Of a stretch of 64,000 nt of DNA, positions 4,300-9,450 are shown piece after piece; within the stretch, counting starts at the first letter, position 1, and every line of letters begins with the position of its first letter. The notes beneath the pieces are model-generated. The model was given only the letters and a program-made list of their open reading frames with translations, did no database searches and was not told the origin of the DNA. The position numbers were made by a program, and so were the translations under genes. This DNA comes from Pacificispira spongiicola (lineage in GTDB: Bacteria > Pseudomonadota > Alphaproteobacteria > UBA8366 > Aestuariispiraceae): contig NZ_JABBNT010000005.1 in assembly GCF_012926505.1 (NCBI RefSeq), positions 62,001 through 126,000 of the forward strand, written 5' to 3'.

Positions 4300-5220
4300 A
4301 TGACGGCTAACACATCGAATGCACAATCCGACACGACCCATAAGGGCATCTTGCTGATCGTTTTCGCGATGTTCGTCTTCGCGTGCCAGGACGCGGTGAC
4401 GAAGCATCTGGCCCAGACCTATGCGACGCCCCAGATCATTTGGATTCGGTACGTCTTCTTTGCGATTTTTGCGACCGTCGTCGCGGGATGGCATGTGCCG
4501 ATCAAGCAAGCGGTCAAATCGACCCGCCCGGTCCTCCAGATTCTACGCTCGCTGATTATCCTGGTCGAAATCGGCACCTTCGTCGTCGCCGTGCGGGTGC
4601 TGTCCCTGGTGGAAATTCATTCCATCATGGCATCCTTCCCGCTGATCGTGACCGCCATGTCCGCGATATTCCTGAAAGAAGCTGTTGGCATTCGGCGTTG
4701 GGCAGCCGTTTTGATCGGTTTCGTCGGCATTCTCGTCATCTTGCGGCCCGGTCTTGGCGTGTTTCGGGTGGAAGCGTTGATCGCCCTGGCGACCGCCTTC
4801 CTGTTCGCCTCGTATCAGGTCCTGACGAAGGTGGCGGGCCGGACGGACAAGTCCAGCACGTCGATGCTTTATATGGCCGTCGTCGGCGCCGCCGTTCTGA
4901 CCGCCATCGGGCCCTTCTATTGGATCGAGCCGACACCGGAAGCGTGGCTGTTGCTCGGCATCTTGTCGGTCACCGGTGTCGTCGGACATTCCTGCCTTAT
5001 CTACGCGTTGAGCCTCGCGCCCGCGTCCAGCCTGCAACCGTTCAATTACACGATGTTGGTTTGGGCGACGATTGTCGGATACCTTGTCTTCGACAACCTT
5101 CCCGATTTGTGGACGATTGTTGGGGGGGCTATAGTCGTGGCCAGCGGCCTCTACACAATTTACCGGGAACGGCGGCGCGCCGTTCCCGTTCCTCCGGCGG
5201 TCGCGCAGGTCAAACCCTGA
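4300..5220 (+). CDS. EamA/DMT-superfamily inner-membrane transporter
   Basis: A 306-residue integral membrane protein with about ten hydrophobic helices arranged as two EamA repeats. The first begins at residue 15 (GILLIVFAMFVFACQDAVTKHLA) and the second near residue 155 (LIALATAFLFASYQVLTKVAGR). The short polar N-terminus and basic C-terminal tail (YRERRRAV) suit a cytosolic location of both ends. Family members export amino acids, nucleosides or drugs; the substrate here cannot be read. The ATG at 4300 lacks a strong Shine-Dalgarno sequence. It precedes the Ldh2-type dehydrogenase by only 27 bases and so probably shares a transcript and possibly a metabolite with it. Confidence 0.85.
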   Translation: MTANTSNAQSDTTHKGILLIVFAMFVFACQDAVTKHLAQTYATPQIIWIRYVFFAIFATVVAGWHVPIKQAVKSTRPVLQILRSLIILVEIGTFVVAVRVLSLVEIHSIMASFPLIVTAMSAIFLKEAVGIRRWAAVLIGFVGILVILRPGLGVFRVEALIALATAFLFASYQVLTKVAGRTDKSSTSMLYMAVVGAAVLTAIGPFYWIEPTPEAWLLLGILSVTGVVGHSCLIYALSLAPASSLQPFNYTMLVWATIVGYLVFDNLPDLWTIVGGAIVVASGLYTIYRERRRAVPVPPAVAQVKP

Positions 5221-5247
5221 TCCAACCATCGAAGGGAGAACAGCCCC

Positions 5248-6303
5248 GTGTCCGTACAGAAGACCGCCACCGATACGACGAGCAGCGTTTCCCTGACCCT
5301 TGATGAAGCGCGCGACCTCGCGATTGCCGCCCTCACCCGACGCGGCGCGGACAACAGGAACGCGCGCGCGGTCGCCGATATCATGATCCGCGCGGAACGC
5401 GACCGCTGCGCCAGTCATGGCCTGTTCCGCCTACAAGGCTATTGCGCCTCCCTGGACAGCGGCAAGGTCGACGGCGCGGCCCACCCGACCCTGCACGACA
5501 TGGCGCCCGGCGTCTTGAAAGTCGATGGCAAGGGCGGGTTTGCCCCGCTGGCATTGGAACTCGGCCTGCCCGCCTTGGCAGATCGCGCCCGGCAGCAGGG
5601 CGTCGCGGTGCTGGGGCTGACCGATATCTATCATTTCGCGGCACTGTGGCCGGAGGTCGAAACCTTGGGTGAATTGGGGCTGTGTGGTCTGGCCATGACC
5701 CAGGCCTCGCCGATGGTCGCCCCAGCCGGCGGGACGAAGCCGTTTTTCGGAACCAATCCCCTCGCCTTTTCCTGGCCGCGCCCGGGACAGGATCCCTTCG
5801 TGTTCGATCAGGCCACAGCGGCTCTCGCCCGTGGGGAAATCATGATCATGGCCCGCGACGGGCATGACGCACCGGACGGCGCCGGTATCGACCCGGATGG
5901 AAATCCGACCAACGATCCCGCAAAAATTCTGGAAGGCGCGCAATTGCCTTTCGGCGGCTACAAGGGATCGAACATCGCCCTGATGATCGAATTGCTGGCG
6001 GGGGCGCTGATCGGGTCTGTCTTTTCCGTGGAATCGGGCCGTCAGGACAACAAAGACGGCGGACCGCCCGTCGGTGGGGAATTCATCCTGGCGATGGATC
6101 CCAGCCGTTTCGGCGATGCCGGTTGGGCTGCGCATACGGAAGTCCTGTTCAAGGAACTGGAAGCGATCGGCGTCAGCCGCCTGCCCGGCACCCGCCGCCG
6201 TCTTGCGCGGCAGGAAACGCCCAGCCAGGGCATCCGCCTGCCCAAGGCACTGTATGACACGGTGCAGGACCTCGCCGTCGGCAACGACACGGACGGCGAT
6301 TGA
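5248..6303 (+). CDS. Ldh2-family NAD(P)H oxidoreductase, DpkA-like
   Basis: A 351-residue member of the malate/L-lactate dehydrogenase type 2 family, which has its own fold unrelated to Rossmann dehydrogenases. The GTG at 5248 is favoured by the upstream AGGGAG. Diagnostic segments are DIYHFAALWPEVE (catalytic histidine), GTKPFFGTNPLAFSWPR, FDQATAALARGEI and LPFGGYKGSNIALMIELLAG. The YHF.ALWP form recalls delta-1-piperideine-2-carboxylate / delta-1-pyrroline-2-carboxylate reductase (DpkA) more than lactate or ureidoglycolate dehydrogenase, so a cyclic-imine substrate is a reasonable inference but is not proven. It sits between an EamA transporter and a formamidase-like hydrolase on the same strand. 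Confidence 0.85.
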   Translation: MSVQKTATDTTSSVSLTLDEARDLAIAALTRRGADNRNARAVADIMIRAERDRCASHGLFRLQGYCASLDSGKVDGAAHPTLHDMAPGVLKVDGKGGFAPLALELGLPALADRARQQGVAVLGLTDIYHFAALWPEVETLGELGLCGLAMTQASPMVAPAGGTKPFFGTNPLAFSWPRPGQDPFVFDQATAALARGEIMIMARDGHDAPDGAGIDPDGNPTNDPAKILEGAQLPFGGYKGSNIALMIELLAGALIGSVFSVESGRQDNKDGGPPVGGEFILAMDPSRFGDAGWAAHTEVLFKELEAIGVSRLPGTRRRLARQETPSQGIRLPKALYDTVQDLAVGNDTDGD

Positions 6304-6346
6304 TAAATTCAAATGATGCGGCTTTCCGGATCGGGGGGATTGTACA

Positions 6347-7552
6347 ATGGAATTCGATTGGTTCGACACACCGGCTCCCATGCCGGTCTGCACGGATGGC
6401 TGTAACCCTGTAAATGCGGAAGGTCGGTCCTCGGCACAGGACGCGAAGACCGCATTTCTGGAGGCCGCGAGAAGTCTTGGACGCGATCTCGTCGCAAAAG
6501 GGGCGGCCCCGCCGCATATCCGCCACCTGAGCGTTGCCGTCCCCGACCCGTCGGCGCTACAGCGGGATATCGTCGATTACGATCTTCTCTACCGGGAAGC
6601 CCTGGGCGGAACCTTCGGCAAGGTCGCCTTAATGACGTCCGATCAGGGAACCATCTTGCAAGCCGCCGCCGTGGTGCCGCCGAAAGACACGGCCCCGAAG
6701 TATCGCGGCATGGACAGTGCCACGTTGAATTTCCAATACAGCCCGCGCGCGACGGTGCCGGAGGCACCGGAAATCATGGCGTCCTGGCGTATCGACGGGG
6801 CGGAGTTCCAAAAAACGCGCACCGCCGAACTGACCTACGGGCCGGATGAGAAGCATCGGATCGACTTGTATATGCCGGACGGCGTCAGCAACCCGCCCTT
6901 GCATATCTTCATCCATGGCGGCTATTGGCAGGCGGCCGACAAGCGCGACAACGGCCATTGCTGCCGCGAACTGGTGAAGGCCGGACTGGCCGTCGCGACG
7001 TTGAACTACCCGCTGTGCCCACCCGCGACGATCCGCGCCATCGTCGCCGACTGTCAGGATGCCATTGCCCTGCTGTATCGCGATGCATCGAAATATGGAT
7101 ACGATCCGGCGCATATTACCGTGTCCGGCCATTCGGCGGGCGGACACCTGACCGCGATGATGGCCGCGACCGATTGGACGCATCTTAGCAGCGACCTTCC
7201 GTCGGATTTGATCAAGGGAAGTATCCCGATTTCCGGACTATTTGAGCTCGAACCCTTGCGCCATACCGGCCTGAATACCGCCTTGCGCCTGACGGAGGAG
7301 GAAGCAGAGGATCTAAGCCCCGTTTACCACGATATCCGCTCGCCCGGTCCGATCGTAGCAGTTGTCGGCGGTGCGGAAAGCGATGAATTCAAGCGTCAAA
7401 GCCATGAATACGTCCACGCTTTCGGCGCGCGCGGGGCCCATATCCGCTATCTGGAACTACCGAACCTCAATCATTTCACCGTGGTGACGGCCTTGGCGGA
7501 CGTGGAAAGCGATCTTTACAAATTTGTTGTAGAAATTGCCCGAAAAACCTGA
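6347..7552 (+). CDS. Arylformamidase-like alpha/beta hydrolase with an N-terminal RidA-like extension
   Basis: A 401-residue protein, longer by about 130 residues than single-domain relatives. Residues 150-400 form a BD-FAE/arylformamidase-type alpha/beta hydrolase: oxyanion motif HGGYW at 190-194, nucleophile elbow GHSAGG with Ser263, the family sequence LNYPLCPPATI, and a late histidine (NLNHFTV). Such enzymes hydrolyse N-formylkynurenine or related amides and esters. Residues 25-130 (helix DAKTAFLEAARSLGRDLV, then LSVAVPDPSALQRD and a closing strand TILQAAAVVPPKD) look to me like a partial RidA/YjgF fold, which in other proteins deaminates enamines or imines. The hydrolase call is strong; the N-terminal call is inference. 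It follows the DpkA-like gene by 43 bases. Confidence 0.8.
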   Translation: MEFDWFDTPAPMPVCTDGCNPVNAEGRSSAQDAKTAFLEAARSLGRDLVAKGAAPPHIRHLSVAVPDPSALQRDIVDYDLLYREALGGTFGKVALMTSDQGTILQAAAVVPPKDTAPKYRGMDSATLNFQYSPRATVPEAPEIMASWRIDGAEFQKTRTAELTYGPDEKHRIDLYMPDGVSNPPLHIFIHGGYWQAADKRDNGHCCRELVKAGLAVATLNYPLCPPATIRAIVADCQDAIALLYRDASKYGYDPAHITVSGHSAGGHLTAMMAATDWTHLSSDLPSDLIKGSIPISGLFELEPLRHTGLNTALRLTEEEAEDLSPVYHDIRSPGPIVAVVGGAESDEFKRQSHEYVHAFGARGAHIRYLELPNLNHFTVVTALADVESDLYKFVVEIARKT

Positions 7553-7562
7553 GAGGTCTTTT

Positions 7563-7655
7563 ATGGAGCGCTTGGTAAAACTTGGCAACGCGGCCAACAT
7601 CCACCCCTGGTTCCAGTGCGGGTTCTATAGTTTGGACAGAAGCATAGCCAATTGA
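7563..7655 (+). pseudogene. Probable remnant of a truncated third gene of the hydrolase operon
   Basis: Ten bases after the hydrolase stop there is an ATG with a good Shine-Dalgarno sequence (GAGAGG, six bases before the start) leading into MERLVKLGNAANIHPWFQCG. This looks like a real protein N-terminus, but after about 20 codons the frame runs into the 3' end of the oppositely oriented marR gene (stop at 7625) and closes at codon 31. I infer that a gene following the hydrolase was cut when the marR-doxX-gst cassette arrived. The family of the lost protein is not recognised. A genuine 30-residue peptide is the alternative. Confidence 0.4.
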
Positions 7656-8053
7656 ACGGCCTCTGCCCTTGTCAGTTTATCCCCGATACCGTCCGTCAGT
7701 ACCTTTGAATATTCCGGCCACATTGCCTTTCTGATCGCGAGTCCCCGCTCGGAAATAAAGACGATTTGGCCACGGCCGTCTTCTTCGCAGTCTCGGCGGT
7801 TGACGAGTCCTGCCGTGACCATCCGGTCCAGGAGACGGGACGTGCCGTATTGCGGCAACAGAAGCCGTTGTCTGAGTTCGAATGGCCGAATTCCTTCCTC
7901 TCCCACCTTTTCCAGTTCCAACAGTGCGTCGTACCAAGAAAGCGGCGGGTGGCCAGCTGATTTCAATGCGGCTTCGACTGTTTCCAAAAGCTGTCGGCTT
8001 TTGGTCATAAGGGCTGTCCAAGCAGCCTGTGTGGTTCGGTCAACATCGGTCAT
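7625..8053 (-). CDS. MarR-family transcriptional regulator
   Basis: A 142-residue winged-helix regulator. The ATG at 8053 (MTDVDRTTQ) is preceded by AAAAGGA at proper spacing and is preferred over two upstream in-frame ATGs. The winged helix is visible in the middle: helix GIRPFELRQRLLLPQYGTSRLLDRMVTAGLV, then the wing NRRDCEEDGRGQIVFISERG. Flanking helices would form the dimer interface. MarR proteins usually repress a divergent gene and release DNA on binding a phenolic or other small ligand or on oxidation. Here the divergent pair is doxX-gst, 97 bases away, so those genes are the likely targets. Confidence 0.88.
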   Translation of the reverse strand: MTDVDRTTQAAWTALMTKSRQLLETVEAALKSAGHPPLSWYDALLELEKVGEEGIRPFELRQRLLLPQYGTSRLLDRMVTAGLVNRRDCEEDGRGQIVFISERGLAIRKAMWPEYSKVLTDGIGDKLTRAEAVQLAMLLSKL

Positions 8054-8090
8054 GCGTTCCTTTTGGCACATGAATGCACTTGCATCAACC

Positions 8091-8127
8091 TTGACAACAG
8101 CAAGCTGCGCGCAATATAGATGCATCT
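8091..8127 (+). promoter_or_regulatory. Promoter and probable MarR operator for doxX-gst
   Basis: In the 97-base gap between marR and doxX there is a sigma70-type -35 box TTGACA (8091-8096), an 18-base spacer and a -10-like TATAGA (8115-8120). A perfect ten-base palindrome AGATGCATCT (8118-8127) overlaps the -10 box, which is a typical place for a repressor to block RNA polymerase. A related TGCATC stands just upstream at 8081. The boxes are seen directly; their use by the adjacent MarR protein is inferred from position. Confidence 0.55.
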
Positions 8128-8150
8128 GTATCTACATTGGGAGAAAGACA

Positions 8151-8588
8151 ATGAACCAAACCATACGGACCGAAACCGCGATACTCCTACTGCGTATTGC
8201 GCTCGGCCTCATGTTTCTCGCCCATAGTTTGCTTCTTAAGCTCTTCGTTATCGGGTTGCCGGGGACGGCACAGTTCTTCATCTCTCTCGGCTTTCCGGGT
8301 TGGCTTGCTTACACCGTCTTCGCAGTGGAGGCAGTGGCAGGCATTCTTCTCGTTCTTGGCATCCAGACCCGTTGGATCGCGCTCGCAACCGTACCGATCC
8401 TTGCTGGGGCGACGTGGGTGCATTCTGGAAACGGCTGGATGTTCGCAAATGCGAATGGCGGCTGGGAGTATCCGGCCTATCTGACCTTACTCGCTGTCGT
8501 TCAGGCTATGCTCGGCGACGGCAGGTTCGCGATGAGCCCGTCCACCTCTCTTCAAACTATTTTCAGAAGCCGGGAGGTATCGTCATGA
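8151..8588 (+). CDS. DoxX-family membrane protein
   Basis: A 145-residue protein with four hydrophobic helices (about residues 8-30, 47-69, 74-92 and 105-125) and the DoxX pattern LLRIALGLMFLAHSLLLK at the start and GWEYPAYLTLLAVVQAMLGDGRFA at the end. DoxX proteins are small inner-membrane proteins linked to quinone, thiol or redox stress, but their reaction is poorly defined. The ATG at 8151 follows GGGAGAAAGA. The stop overlaps the gst start in an ATGA arrangement, so translation is coupled. Leucine is often CTC or CTT here, unlike the CTG preference of neighbouring genes, which supports a different origin. Confidence 0.85.
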   Translation: MNQTIRTETAILLLRIALGLMFLAHSLLLKLFVIGLPGTAQFFISLGFPGWLAYTVFAVEAVAGILLVLGIQTRWIALATVPILAGATWVHSGNGWMFANANGGWEYPAYLTLLAVVQAMLGDGRFAMSPSTSLQTIFRSREVSS

Positions 8589-9262
8589 TGTTGCAACTTA
8601 TCAGCCACGTGCTGTGCCCTTATGTTCAGCGGGCCGCGATCATGCTTACCGAAAAGGGCGTCGAGTTCGATCGTACAAACATCGACCTTGCCGACAAACC
8701 GGCTTGGTTCCTCGACATCTCGCCGCTCGGCAAGACGCCGGTGCTCATTGTCGATGGATTTCCGATCTTCGAGTCAGCCGTCATCCTCGAATATCTCGAA
8801 GAGACGCTACCCAATCCGCTGCACCCCGACACAGCGCTCGCGCGGGCAGAACATCGCGCATGGATGGAATTCGGATCGGCGATACTGAACGACATCGCCG
8901 GATTCTACTCAGTCGCAGATGCCACGTCATTCGACGAGAAGGTCTGCGCCCTGCGTACCAAGTTCCTCCGACTTGAAGCCGAACTTCGGGTCGGTCCCTA
9001 TTTCGACGGTGATAGGTTTAGGCTTGTCGACGTCGTGTTCGGCCCTGTGTTCAGATATTTCGATGTTTTCGACGAGATTGGGGACTTCGGCATCTTCACA
9101 GGTCTTACTCGTGTTCAAGCCTGGCGAAAGGAACTGGAGCGCAGGCCCTCTGTTAGGACTGCGGTAACCGAAGACTATCCGGCACTCCTAAGGGATTTCA
9201 TTCAGCGGCGGGCCTCATATCTTTCGGTATTGGCCGGAAAAACAAGTCCTGGGATGGTATGA
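8585..9262 (+). CDS. Glutathione S-transferase family protein
   Basis: A 225-residue cytosolic enzyme. The thioredoxin-like N-terminal domain begins MMLQLISHVLCPYVQRA, where the cysteine of CPYVQR is the expected catalytic residue of omega/lambda-like or cysteine-type GSTs. The glutathione-binding loop is GKTPVLIVDG and the gamma-Glu contact is ESAVILEYLEE. The helical C-terminal domain follows from about residue 85 and includes RLVDVVFGPVFRYFDVFDE. Cysteine-type GSTs act more as thiol reductases or deglutathionylases than as conjugating enzymes. Overlap with doxX by four bases and the shared promoter suggest a joint role in handling an electrophile or oxidant sensed by MarR. Confidence 0.9.
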   Translation: MMLQLISHVLCPYVQRAAIMLTEKGVEFDRTNIDLADKPAWFLDISPLGKTPVLIVDGFPIFESAVILEYLEETLPNPLHPDTALARAEHRAWMEFGSAILNDIAGFYSVADATSFDEKVCALRTKFLRLEAELRVGPYFDGDRFRLVDVVFGPVFRYFDVFDEIGDFGIFTGLTRVQAWRKELERRPSVRTAVTEDYPALLRDFIQRRASYLSVLAGKTSPGMV

Positions 9263-9444
9263 ATATCGAGAAGCCCGGCGTCGGCGGCATCTTCGACAAA
9301 CCTTTATATGAGGTCGTCATTGGAAATTGCGGTCTCAACTCGACCCTCGTGTCAAAGTTTGAGATCGCAATCGCTGATTCCACCGTTCCGGGGGCCCGAA
9401 TCGTGTTCTCAACGCGTGACAGTGGGTTTCGTACGGGCCTGTAA
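9259..9444 (+). CDS. Possible short ORF coupled to gst
   Basis: A 61-codon frame starting with an ATGA overlap on the gst stop. The product (MNIEKPGVGGIFDKP at the start) has no recognised domain, no signal sequence and no clear amphipathic helices. An opposite-strand frame covers the same bases, and neither looks convincingly protein-like. The overlap arrangement is the only argument for translation. It may instead be leftover sequence at the right edge of the marR-doxX-gst cassette. Confidence 0.25.
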   Translation: MNIEKPGVGGIFDKPLYEVVIGNCGLNSTLVSKFEIAIADSTVPGARIVFSTRDSGFRTGL

Positions 9445-9450
9445 ACACCC

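Follow-up and report, generated by a model that had tools for sequence, protein, structure and literature searches.

Rid proteins and Ldh2-family reductases are among the closest described relatives of the locus analysed here. In passages of PMC4433059, an arginine is described as essential for imine hydrolysis by RidA, and the subfamilies Rid4-Rid7, which are without this arginine, are called mysterious and their functions are given as unknown. Proline ketimine reductases are known in the Ldh2 family (in part of PMC4113996). As for its member DpkA, excerpts from PMC6775277 report an in vitro reduction of imines of 2-oxo acids and alkylamines and name three ring-contact residues (F117, M141, and P262), and an excerpt from PMC3527362 says that an RR pair binds the phosphate of NADPH. 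Here, we describe a locus at positions 4300-7655 of a 64,000-nucleotide stretch (the window) of contig NZ_JABBNT010000005.1 of Pacificispira spongiicola, in which a DpkA-like reductase gene is followed by a gene for a fusion of a degenerate Rid domain and an alpha/beta serine hydrolase. The explanation that we prefer, and to which we give about even chances, is that a genus-specific group of four genes (EamA transporter, DpkA-like reductase, M20 amidohydrolase, and fusion), in which two modules were joined, is preserved here in part, M20 having been lost in this genome.

The locus has three genes on the plus strand, whose open frames were confirmed and which are spaced by 27 bases (EamA to Ldh2) and 43 bases (Ldh2 to hydrolase), as given in the initial annotation of this DNA. 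The first gene (4300-5220) encodes an EamA-family membrane transporter of 306 amino acids, the second (5248-6303, GTG start) an Ldh2-family, DpkA-like NAD(P)H imine reductase of 351 amino acids (Pfam PF02615), and the third (6347-7552) the fusion of 401 amino acids. The matches to EamA (the family named for the first gene at the outset), Ldh_2, and BD-FAE/Abhydrolase_3 were above the Pfam cut-offs. The comparison was performed with a family set of 14 genomes (G000-G013), of which G000 is the window genome (4.2 Mb, 97.85% complete). In all five other genomes of the same genus, the order was prfC (opposite strand), EamA, Ldh2, M20, the fusion, and a convergent DNA-3-methyladenine-glycosylase-like gene; the names of the flanking genes were taken from NCBIfam, with the glycosylase-like gene scoring below the cut-off. 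The EamA protein was 64-70% identical to the product of the gene at the same place in these five genomes, and the reductase was 69-74% identical to its orthologues there. Full-length homologues of the 401-amino-acid protein were found with 55-58% identity in the same five genomes and with 37-47% identity in six more genomes of the family; the search with this protein gave some match in 51 of 59 genomes, mostly to the hydrolase part alone. Since the EamA-Ldh2-hydrolase order recurred in five of the five other same-genus genomes searched, it is more than chance. The expectation that related genomes would keep the order was thus borne out within the genus, with M20 always inside the group, but not in other genera, where reductase and fusion were apart in four of four genomes that have both.

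The missing member is M20. The window has only the 43 bases of 6304-6346 where the five same-genus relatives carry the M20 gene. The gene was present in 13 of the 14 family genomes, with the window genome as the sole absentee and the other 13 as positive controls, and tblastn of M20 against the window (E <= 10) gave five short matches, the best with an E value of 1.9. The M20 protein of the relatives was assigned to the hydantoinase/carbamoylase family by PDB and NCBIfam (TIGR01879, 396 bits; cut-off, 204). Four motifs, which we take to be the metal site of this family, were present in all 13 family copies. M20 adjoins the fusion gene in nine of the 11 fusion-bearing family relatives, on the same strand in G001-G005, G007, and G012 and divergently in G008 and G013, and it lies elsewhere in G006 and G011. 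In G007, M20 and the fusion overlap (L118), on a contig other than that of EamA and the reductase. An enzyme was therefore lost from this locus, as had been suspected; it is, however, M20 upstream of the hydrolase and not the frame at 7563 downstream of it.

The fusion-linked M20 was also considered as the beta-ureidopropionase of pyrimidine breakdown, and this was judged unlikely because preA had no full match in nine of nine genomes with a fusion-linked M20. In the four genomes with preA (NCBIfam equivalog; G006, G009, G010, and G011), M20 was within 3.5 kb of preA. On both grounds, an M20 linked to the fusion is unlikely to be the enzyme of the pyrimidine pathway. In the M20 tree (14 rows), the forks of which were weak, the fusion-linked copies did not form one clade apart from the pyrimidine-operon copies, and some of these genomes have a dihydropyrimidinase-like gene at 34-41% identity, with remote matches alone in G000, G002, G004, and G012. 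Within the family (L112-L121 versus L162-L165), M20 was located either beside the fusion (nine genomes without preA) or near preA (four genomes), a partner swap of one enzyme type.

With regard to the reductase, the phmmer search of PDB gave DpkA (1wtj, with 2cwf/2cwh) as the best match (E value, 5.9e-75; 255.7 bits), followed by the next superfamily member at 4.6e-39 (137.7 bits), and the matched NCBIfam equivalogs were all under their cut-offs. The NADPH arginine pair of DpkA aligned with RR in the phmmer alignment. As for the ring contacts, F117 and P262 were kept and M141 was replaced by serine, as mapped by hand with an inferred numbering offset of 10. The YHF.ALWP form that had led to the idea of a DpkA-like enzyme was present as YHFAALWP, and the idea itself agrees with DpkA being the closest protein in PDB. 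Judging from these alignments, the Ldh2 enzyme is DpkA-like and probably NADPH-dependent.

Outside the genus, the reductase orthologue was apart from the fusion in all four genomes that have both (G007, G008, G011, and G012). In G007 (L158), prfC, EamA (64%), and the Ldh2 orthologue (59%) were together without M20 or the fusion; in G012 (L160), the reductase orthologue had no EamA neighbour; and in G008 (L159) and G011 (L161), the Ldh2 orthologue (58-62%) was directly downstream of an FAD/GcvT-type gene of 808 or 846 codons, which in G008 had dimethylglycine dehydrogenase as its best match. At L159:6617-10104, the longest frames of the FAD/GcvT-type gene and the reductase overlap by 4 bases, and the homologous part begins about 60 bases later; L161:6980-10631 has the same pairing in a second genus. 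These neighbourhoods point to an imine or N-methyl amino acid chemistry of the reductase's own. They are also a ground for regarding the genes as coincidental neighbours, with EamA and the reductase for N-methyl or D-amino acids, M20 and the fusion for a separate N-acyl/N-carbamoyl catabolism, and position alone joining them. The in vitro activity of DpkA on imines of 2-oxo acids and alkylamines (excerpts of PMC6775277) and the separate contigs of the two modules in G007 are in line with such coincidence; however, all four genes were together in each of the five other same-genus genomes and the remaining three are together in the window, and we consider coincidence rather unlikely.

The N-terminal extension of the third gene product was then characterized with 17 fusion proteins, each record being used once after duplicates were merged (L008/L032/L117, L009/L034/L118, L010/L033/L119, and others). 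Two further candidates, L056 and L107, were excluded, their upstream open frame being antisense. The full-length fusion was modelled by AlphaFold2 with the 17 natural fusions in the alignment (predicted local distance difference test (pLDDT), 93.8; predicted template modelling (TM) score, 0.92). Because the 50 Foldseek matches listed for the full-length model were hydrolases alone, the extension was folded alone (pLDDT, 93.6). It corresponds to the N-terminal 130 residues (6347-6736), with the Rid domain at about residues 16-112. In the Foldseek search of PDB with this model, ranks 1-32 were all Rid proteins (E values from 1.2e-5; TM, 0.53-0.56), and VIA-align gave Z scores of 10.2 for PA5083 (root-mean-square deviation, 3.3 over 93 residues) and 9.4 for E. 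coli YjgF (2.2 over 89 residues). Of 385 genomes of the class, 79 had matches to the profile of the 17 extensions, with E values down to 4.6e-18; the matches listed were mostly short free-standing frames, such as the one at L085, and included a frame of the window's own genome (C13:132482; E value, 1.6e-13) that also matched PF01042. Single extension sequences matched PF01042 weakly (two of 17; best E value, 0.021), and hhalign of the extension with three RidA-family proteins of the same genome gave a probability of 36 from a three-row alignment. With these two comparisons being weak, Rid homology was decided by the fold search and the profile search. The structural model and the profile matches support both a RidA fold of the extension and its homology to Rid proteins, and the resemblance proposed in the initial annotation was thereby substantiated. 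No report of a fusion of Rid with an alpha/beta hydrolase was found in the open-access literature searched, which is weak evidence since listings and passages alone were covered, and the passages of PMC4433059 on fusion or fused proteins hold no such fusion.

The active site of this Rid domain is degenerate. Imine deaminases of the RidA subfamily are trimers whose active sites lie between the subunits. For this analysis, the 17 extensions were aligned with 27 free-standing relatives and with L123 and L124, two proteins of the same genome that match PF01042. Of the 28 free-standing rows entered, one, a stray second piece of L153, dropped out owing to its shared name. At the position equivalent to Arg105 of E. 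coli TdcF, the RidA arginine, none of the 17 fusions had arginine (I, V, E, T, or F instead); with the register of L123 the count was again zero of 17 (A, T, F, G, V, Y, or S). The free-standing clade was likewise without it (0/27; M, V, or I), L123 carried the arginine, and L124 had T. In the column of the glutamate (Glu120 of TdcF), E was present in two of the fusions and D in two more, as compared with E in 27 of 27 free-standing relatives; the window protein has Q. The stretch before the first helix in the free-standing clade (YANGI..GRxVFVAGQIGW) was unrecognisable in the fusions, although strands remain in the model at 3-6 and 20-28. The mean identity within the genus was 50% for the extension versus 70% for the hydrolase (15 pairs), and the overall mean pairwise identity was 31% versus 46% (136 pairs); by these values, the extension is estimated to evolve faster than the hydrolase.

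Since the arginine is missing in 17/17 fusions and the glutamate in 15/17, action on enamines and imines, which had been expected from the fold, does not follow, and the Rid domain of the fusion is probably not an imine deaminase. This bears on the original proposal of one pathway that opens and reduces a nitrogen-containing ring, in which an active RidA domain would remove the enamine or imine nitrogen and the formamidase would open the ring product. The DpkA-like reductase, the Rid fold, the formamidase-like hydrolase, and the order conserved in the genus are compatible with this proposal, but the missing active-site residues are against it, and the separation of reductase and fusion in the four other-genus genomes makes a joint ring-opening pathway doubtful; if the modules are separate, the enzymes need not share one pathway. 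A single ring-opening pathway is thus not supported, and we regard it as quite unlikely.

The hydrolase domain (6737-7549) belongs to the HSL/kynurenine-formamidase-like branch of the alpha/beta hydrolases and has HGGYWQ, GHSAGGH, and a conserved H376. HGGYW is the oxyanion motif and GxSxG is the nucleophile motif of such enzymes. Among the 17 fusions, HGGYWQ was present in all, and GHSAGGH in 15, with GHSVGGH and GHSAGGY in the others. By fold and sequence, the best solved matches were Lipase 1 of Pseudomonas chlororaphis (9n8r), 2pbl, and, third, kynurenine formamidase of Drosophila (4e11); the top Foldseek matches had 21-31% identity, and the best NCBIfam profile, NF058665, scored 178 against a cut-off of 320. 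The arylformamidase core named in the initial annotation is therefore right in so far as the domain is near kynurenine formamidase in fold, although two other structures rank higher.

Unfused relatives of the hydrolase are common (at least 588 relatives, of which 80 loci were kept), and their surroundings raise the alternative that the hydrolase is a kynurenine- or N-formylanthranilate-type formamidase that would feed anthranilate catabolism. A gene of salicylyl-CoA 5-hydroxylase/oxidoreductase type was within about 8 kb of 16 of the 72 unfused loci listed and also occurred in G009 (L166), and 11 of 90 unfused loci (18 of the 90 having short flanks), all 11 of Bradyrhizobium, also carry a free-standing Rid protein from the clade closest to the extension. 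Ten of the 11 belong to the 16 hydroxylase-linked loci. These 10 loci, together with L109, and the third rank of the Drosophila kynurenine formamidase are in favour of the anthranilate connection, but the hydroxylase-type gene was found at none of the 16 distinct fused loci (19 ids) in the stretches examined, and the unfused hydrolases compared are only 36-46% identical to the window hydrolase domain (L002, 28%); this connection is very unlikely for the fusion. No kynurenine-pathway genes were recognised by eye among the frames listed around the window locus or the fused loci, and the part of the indole review PMC6221969 that was consulted gave no formamidase lead. Branched-chain-amino-acid/urea-type ABC transporter genes were present at three fused loci (L035, L091, and L120).

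The occurrence of the unfused hydrolase and a free-standing Rid protein at the same loci means that the halves of the fusion also meet as separate genes. The Bradyrhizobium loci with an unfused hydrolase and an arginine-less Rid are L061, L066, L070, L071, L079, L080, L085, L104, L106, L109, and L111; all except L109 (10/11) also have salicylyl-CoA 5-hydroxylase-type and benzoate-CoA-ligase-type genes. The fusion gene of G011 (L122:7567-11139) is flanked on one side by an aminotransferase gene (NF006014) and on the other by a gene of beta-keto-acid-cleavage type, a setting seen at no other fused locus; the latter gene matched NF053538 (3,5-dioxohexanoate:acetyl-CoA acetone transferase) above the cut-off.

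The least probable of the explanations considered is a Rut-like route, for a gene set that we liken to RutB-C-D-E-G, in which M20 would free an enamine from a carbamoylated precursor, the fusion (RutC and RutD in one) would deaminate it, the reductase would reduce the product, and EamA would export it: M20 beside the fusion in nine of 11 fusion-bearing family relatives and an isochorismatase-type hydrolase gene about 2.4 kb past the fusion on the other strand at L091 are consistent with it, but the Rid active site is lost and the window has no M20.

The preferred explanation, the remainder of a four-gene group made of two modules, takes as observed the order of the genes and the loss of one of them, the Rid fold, the missing Rid arginine, the DpkA-like sequence of the reductase, and the intact hydrolase motifs. 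The fusion would be a serine amidase or esterase (formamidase-like) acting on N-acylated or N-formylated small molecules, and its Rid domain would no longer deaminate imines and might serve as an oligomerisation or substrate-pocket domain. The reductase would be an NADPH-dependent ketimine reductase for delta-1-pyrroline- or piperideine-2-carboxylate or for N-alkyl imines of 2-oxo acids, M20 in the relatives would strip a carbamoyl or acyl group, and EamA might carry the substrate or product over the membrane. EamA-reductase and M20-fusion would be two modules brought together in this genus.

Several points weigh against this explanation. The full four-gene group is known from five genomes of a single genus, and the promoter and terminator scan of the locus gave no signal beyond that of shuffled sequences. 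M20 could in principle lie on a missing piece of the 97.85%-complete window genome. M20 was adjacent to the fusion at none of the five fused loci outside the family (L035, L046, L090, L091, and L105), so that the M20-fusion partnership is local; at L105, a 31% M20 match was 1.7 kb from the fusion. As for the Rid domain, R was found within two columns of the arginine position in one or three of the 17 fusions, depending on the register, and L124, one of the two PF01042 comparison proteins, was also without the arginine in the alignment; moreover, a Rid domain without the arginine may have another chemistry, as the functions of Rid4-Rid7 are given as unknown in the passages of PMC4433059. The hydrolase could equally cut esters or thioesters, since its closest solved relatives are named lipase and thioesterase. 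Finally, the substrates of all the enzymes are predictions from sequence.

Downstream of the fusion gene, the window has an insertion of 1,898 bases (7553-9450) before the DNA-3-methyladenine-glycosylase-like gene. In all five same-genus relatives, from which the insertion was missing, the ends of the fusion gene and the glycosylase-like gene are separated by -13 to +11 bases, as compared with 1,898 bases in the window. Bases 7624-9225, with MarR, DoxX, and GST genes, matched G011:C7:95797-97400 at 71% DNA identity, and the part to the left of base 7624 had no DNA match in 59 genomes except its own. The start ten bases after the hydrolase stop codon, from which the initial annotation had deduced a lost third enzyme, is present at 7563; it opens a frame of 30 codons (7563-7655, plus strand) that extends into the MarR gene at its 3' end, and it falls within the 71 bases to the left of the G011-matching stretch, at the left edge of the insertion. 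As the remnant of an enzyme this frame was rejected, having no Pfam match in its 30- or 20-residue form and no NCBIfam match; it lies at the edge of the insertion, the MarR-DoxX-GST cassette of which is unrelated. No flanking repeats that would explain the insertion were found. The cassette (7624-9259), in which the MarR gene on the minus strand is closely packed with those for DoxX and GST, has a G+C content of about 55%, versus 60-64% in the putative operon to the left and 58% to the right. Since it also occurs in G011 at 71%, it may be a moving stress cassette. At the right end of the insertion, a frame of 61 amino acids (9259-9444), the start of which overlaps the GST stop codon, had no Pfam match and no plasmid match.

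The modules of the locus are themselves of known kinds, and what is unusual is that a hydrolase recurs in fusion with a degenerate Rid domain; the locus illustrates a group that was assembled from two modules and then lost a member. It is possible, though doubtful, that the fusion represents a new enzyme architecture: a serine amidase in which a Rid domain without the arginine has a structural or substrate-binding role and does not deaminate. If so, arginine-less Rid proteins would act on N-acyl or amino-aryl intermediates in partnership with formamidase-like hydrolases, and the clusters in which unfused hydrolases occur beside free-standing Rid proteins of that clade would provide a first functional handle on these Rid proteins. 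With the recurring fusion and the cluster link of its separate parts, the role of such a Rid is directly testable with purified proteins.

Compared with known systems, the reductase is like DpkA, its best solved match by a wide margin, in sharing HFAALWP and the RR pair, and unlike it in the serine at the M141 position. The M20 of the relatives is like the hydantoinase/carbamoylase family (TIGR01879) in its score above the cut-off and its four kept motifs, the difference from the family copies being that the window has none. The hydrolase is like kynurenine formamidase (4e11) and bacterial HSL-like hydrolases (9n8r and 2pbl) in fold and motif core, and is set apart from them by its 21-31% identity, by a score below the NF058665 cut-off, and by the attached Rid domain. 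The Rid domain is like the Rid family, which has eight subfamilies (RidA/YjgF/YER057c/UK114; Pfam PF01042), in fold and profile-level homology and unlike it in being joined to a hydrolase. It resembles the arginine-less subfamilies Rid4-Rid7 in that its nearest free-standing clade is also without the arginine (27/27), and differs from that clade in that its glutamate is kept in 2/17 versus 27/27 and the stretch before the first helix is no longer recognisable.

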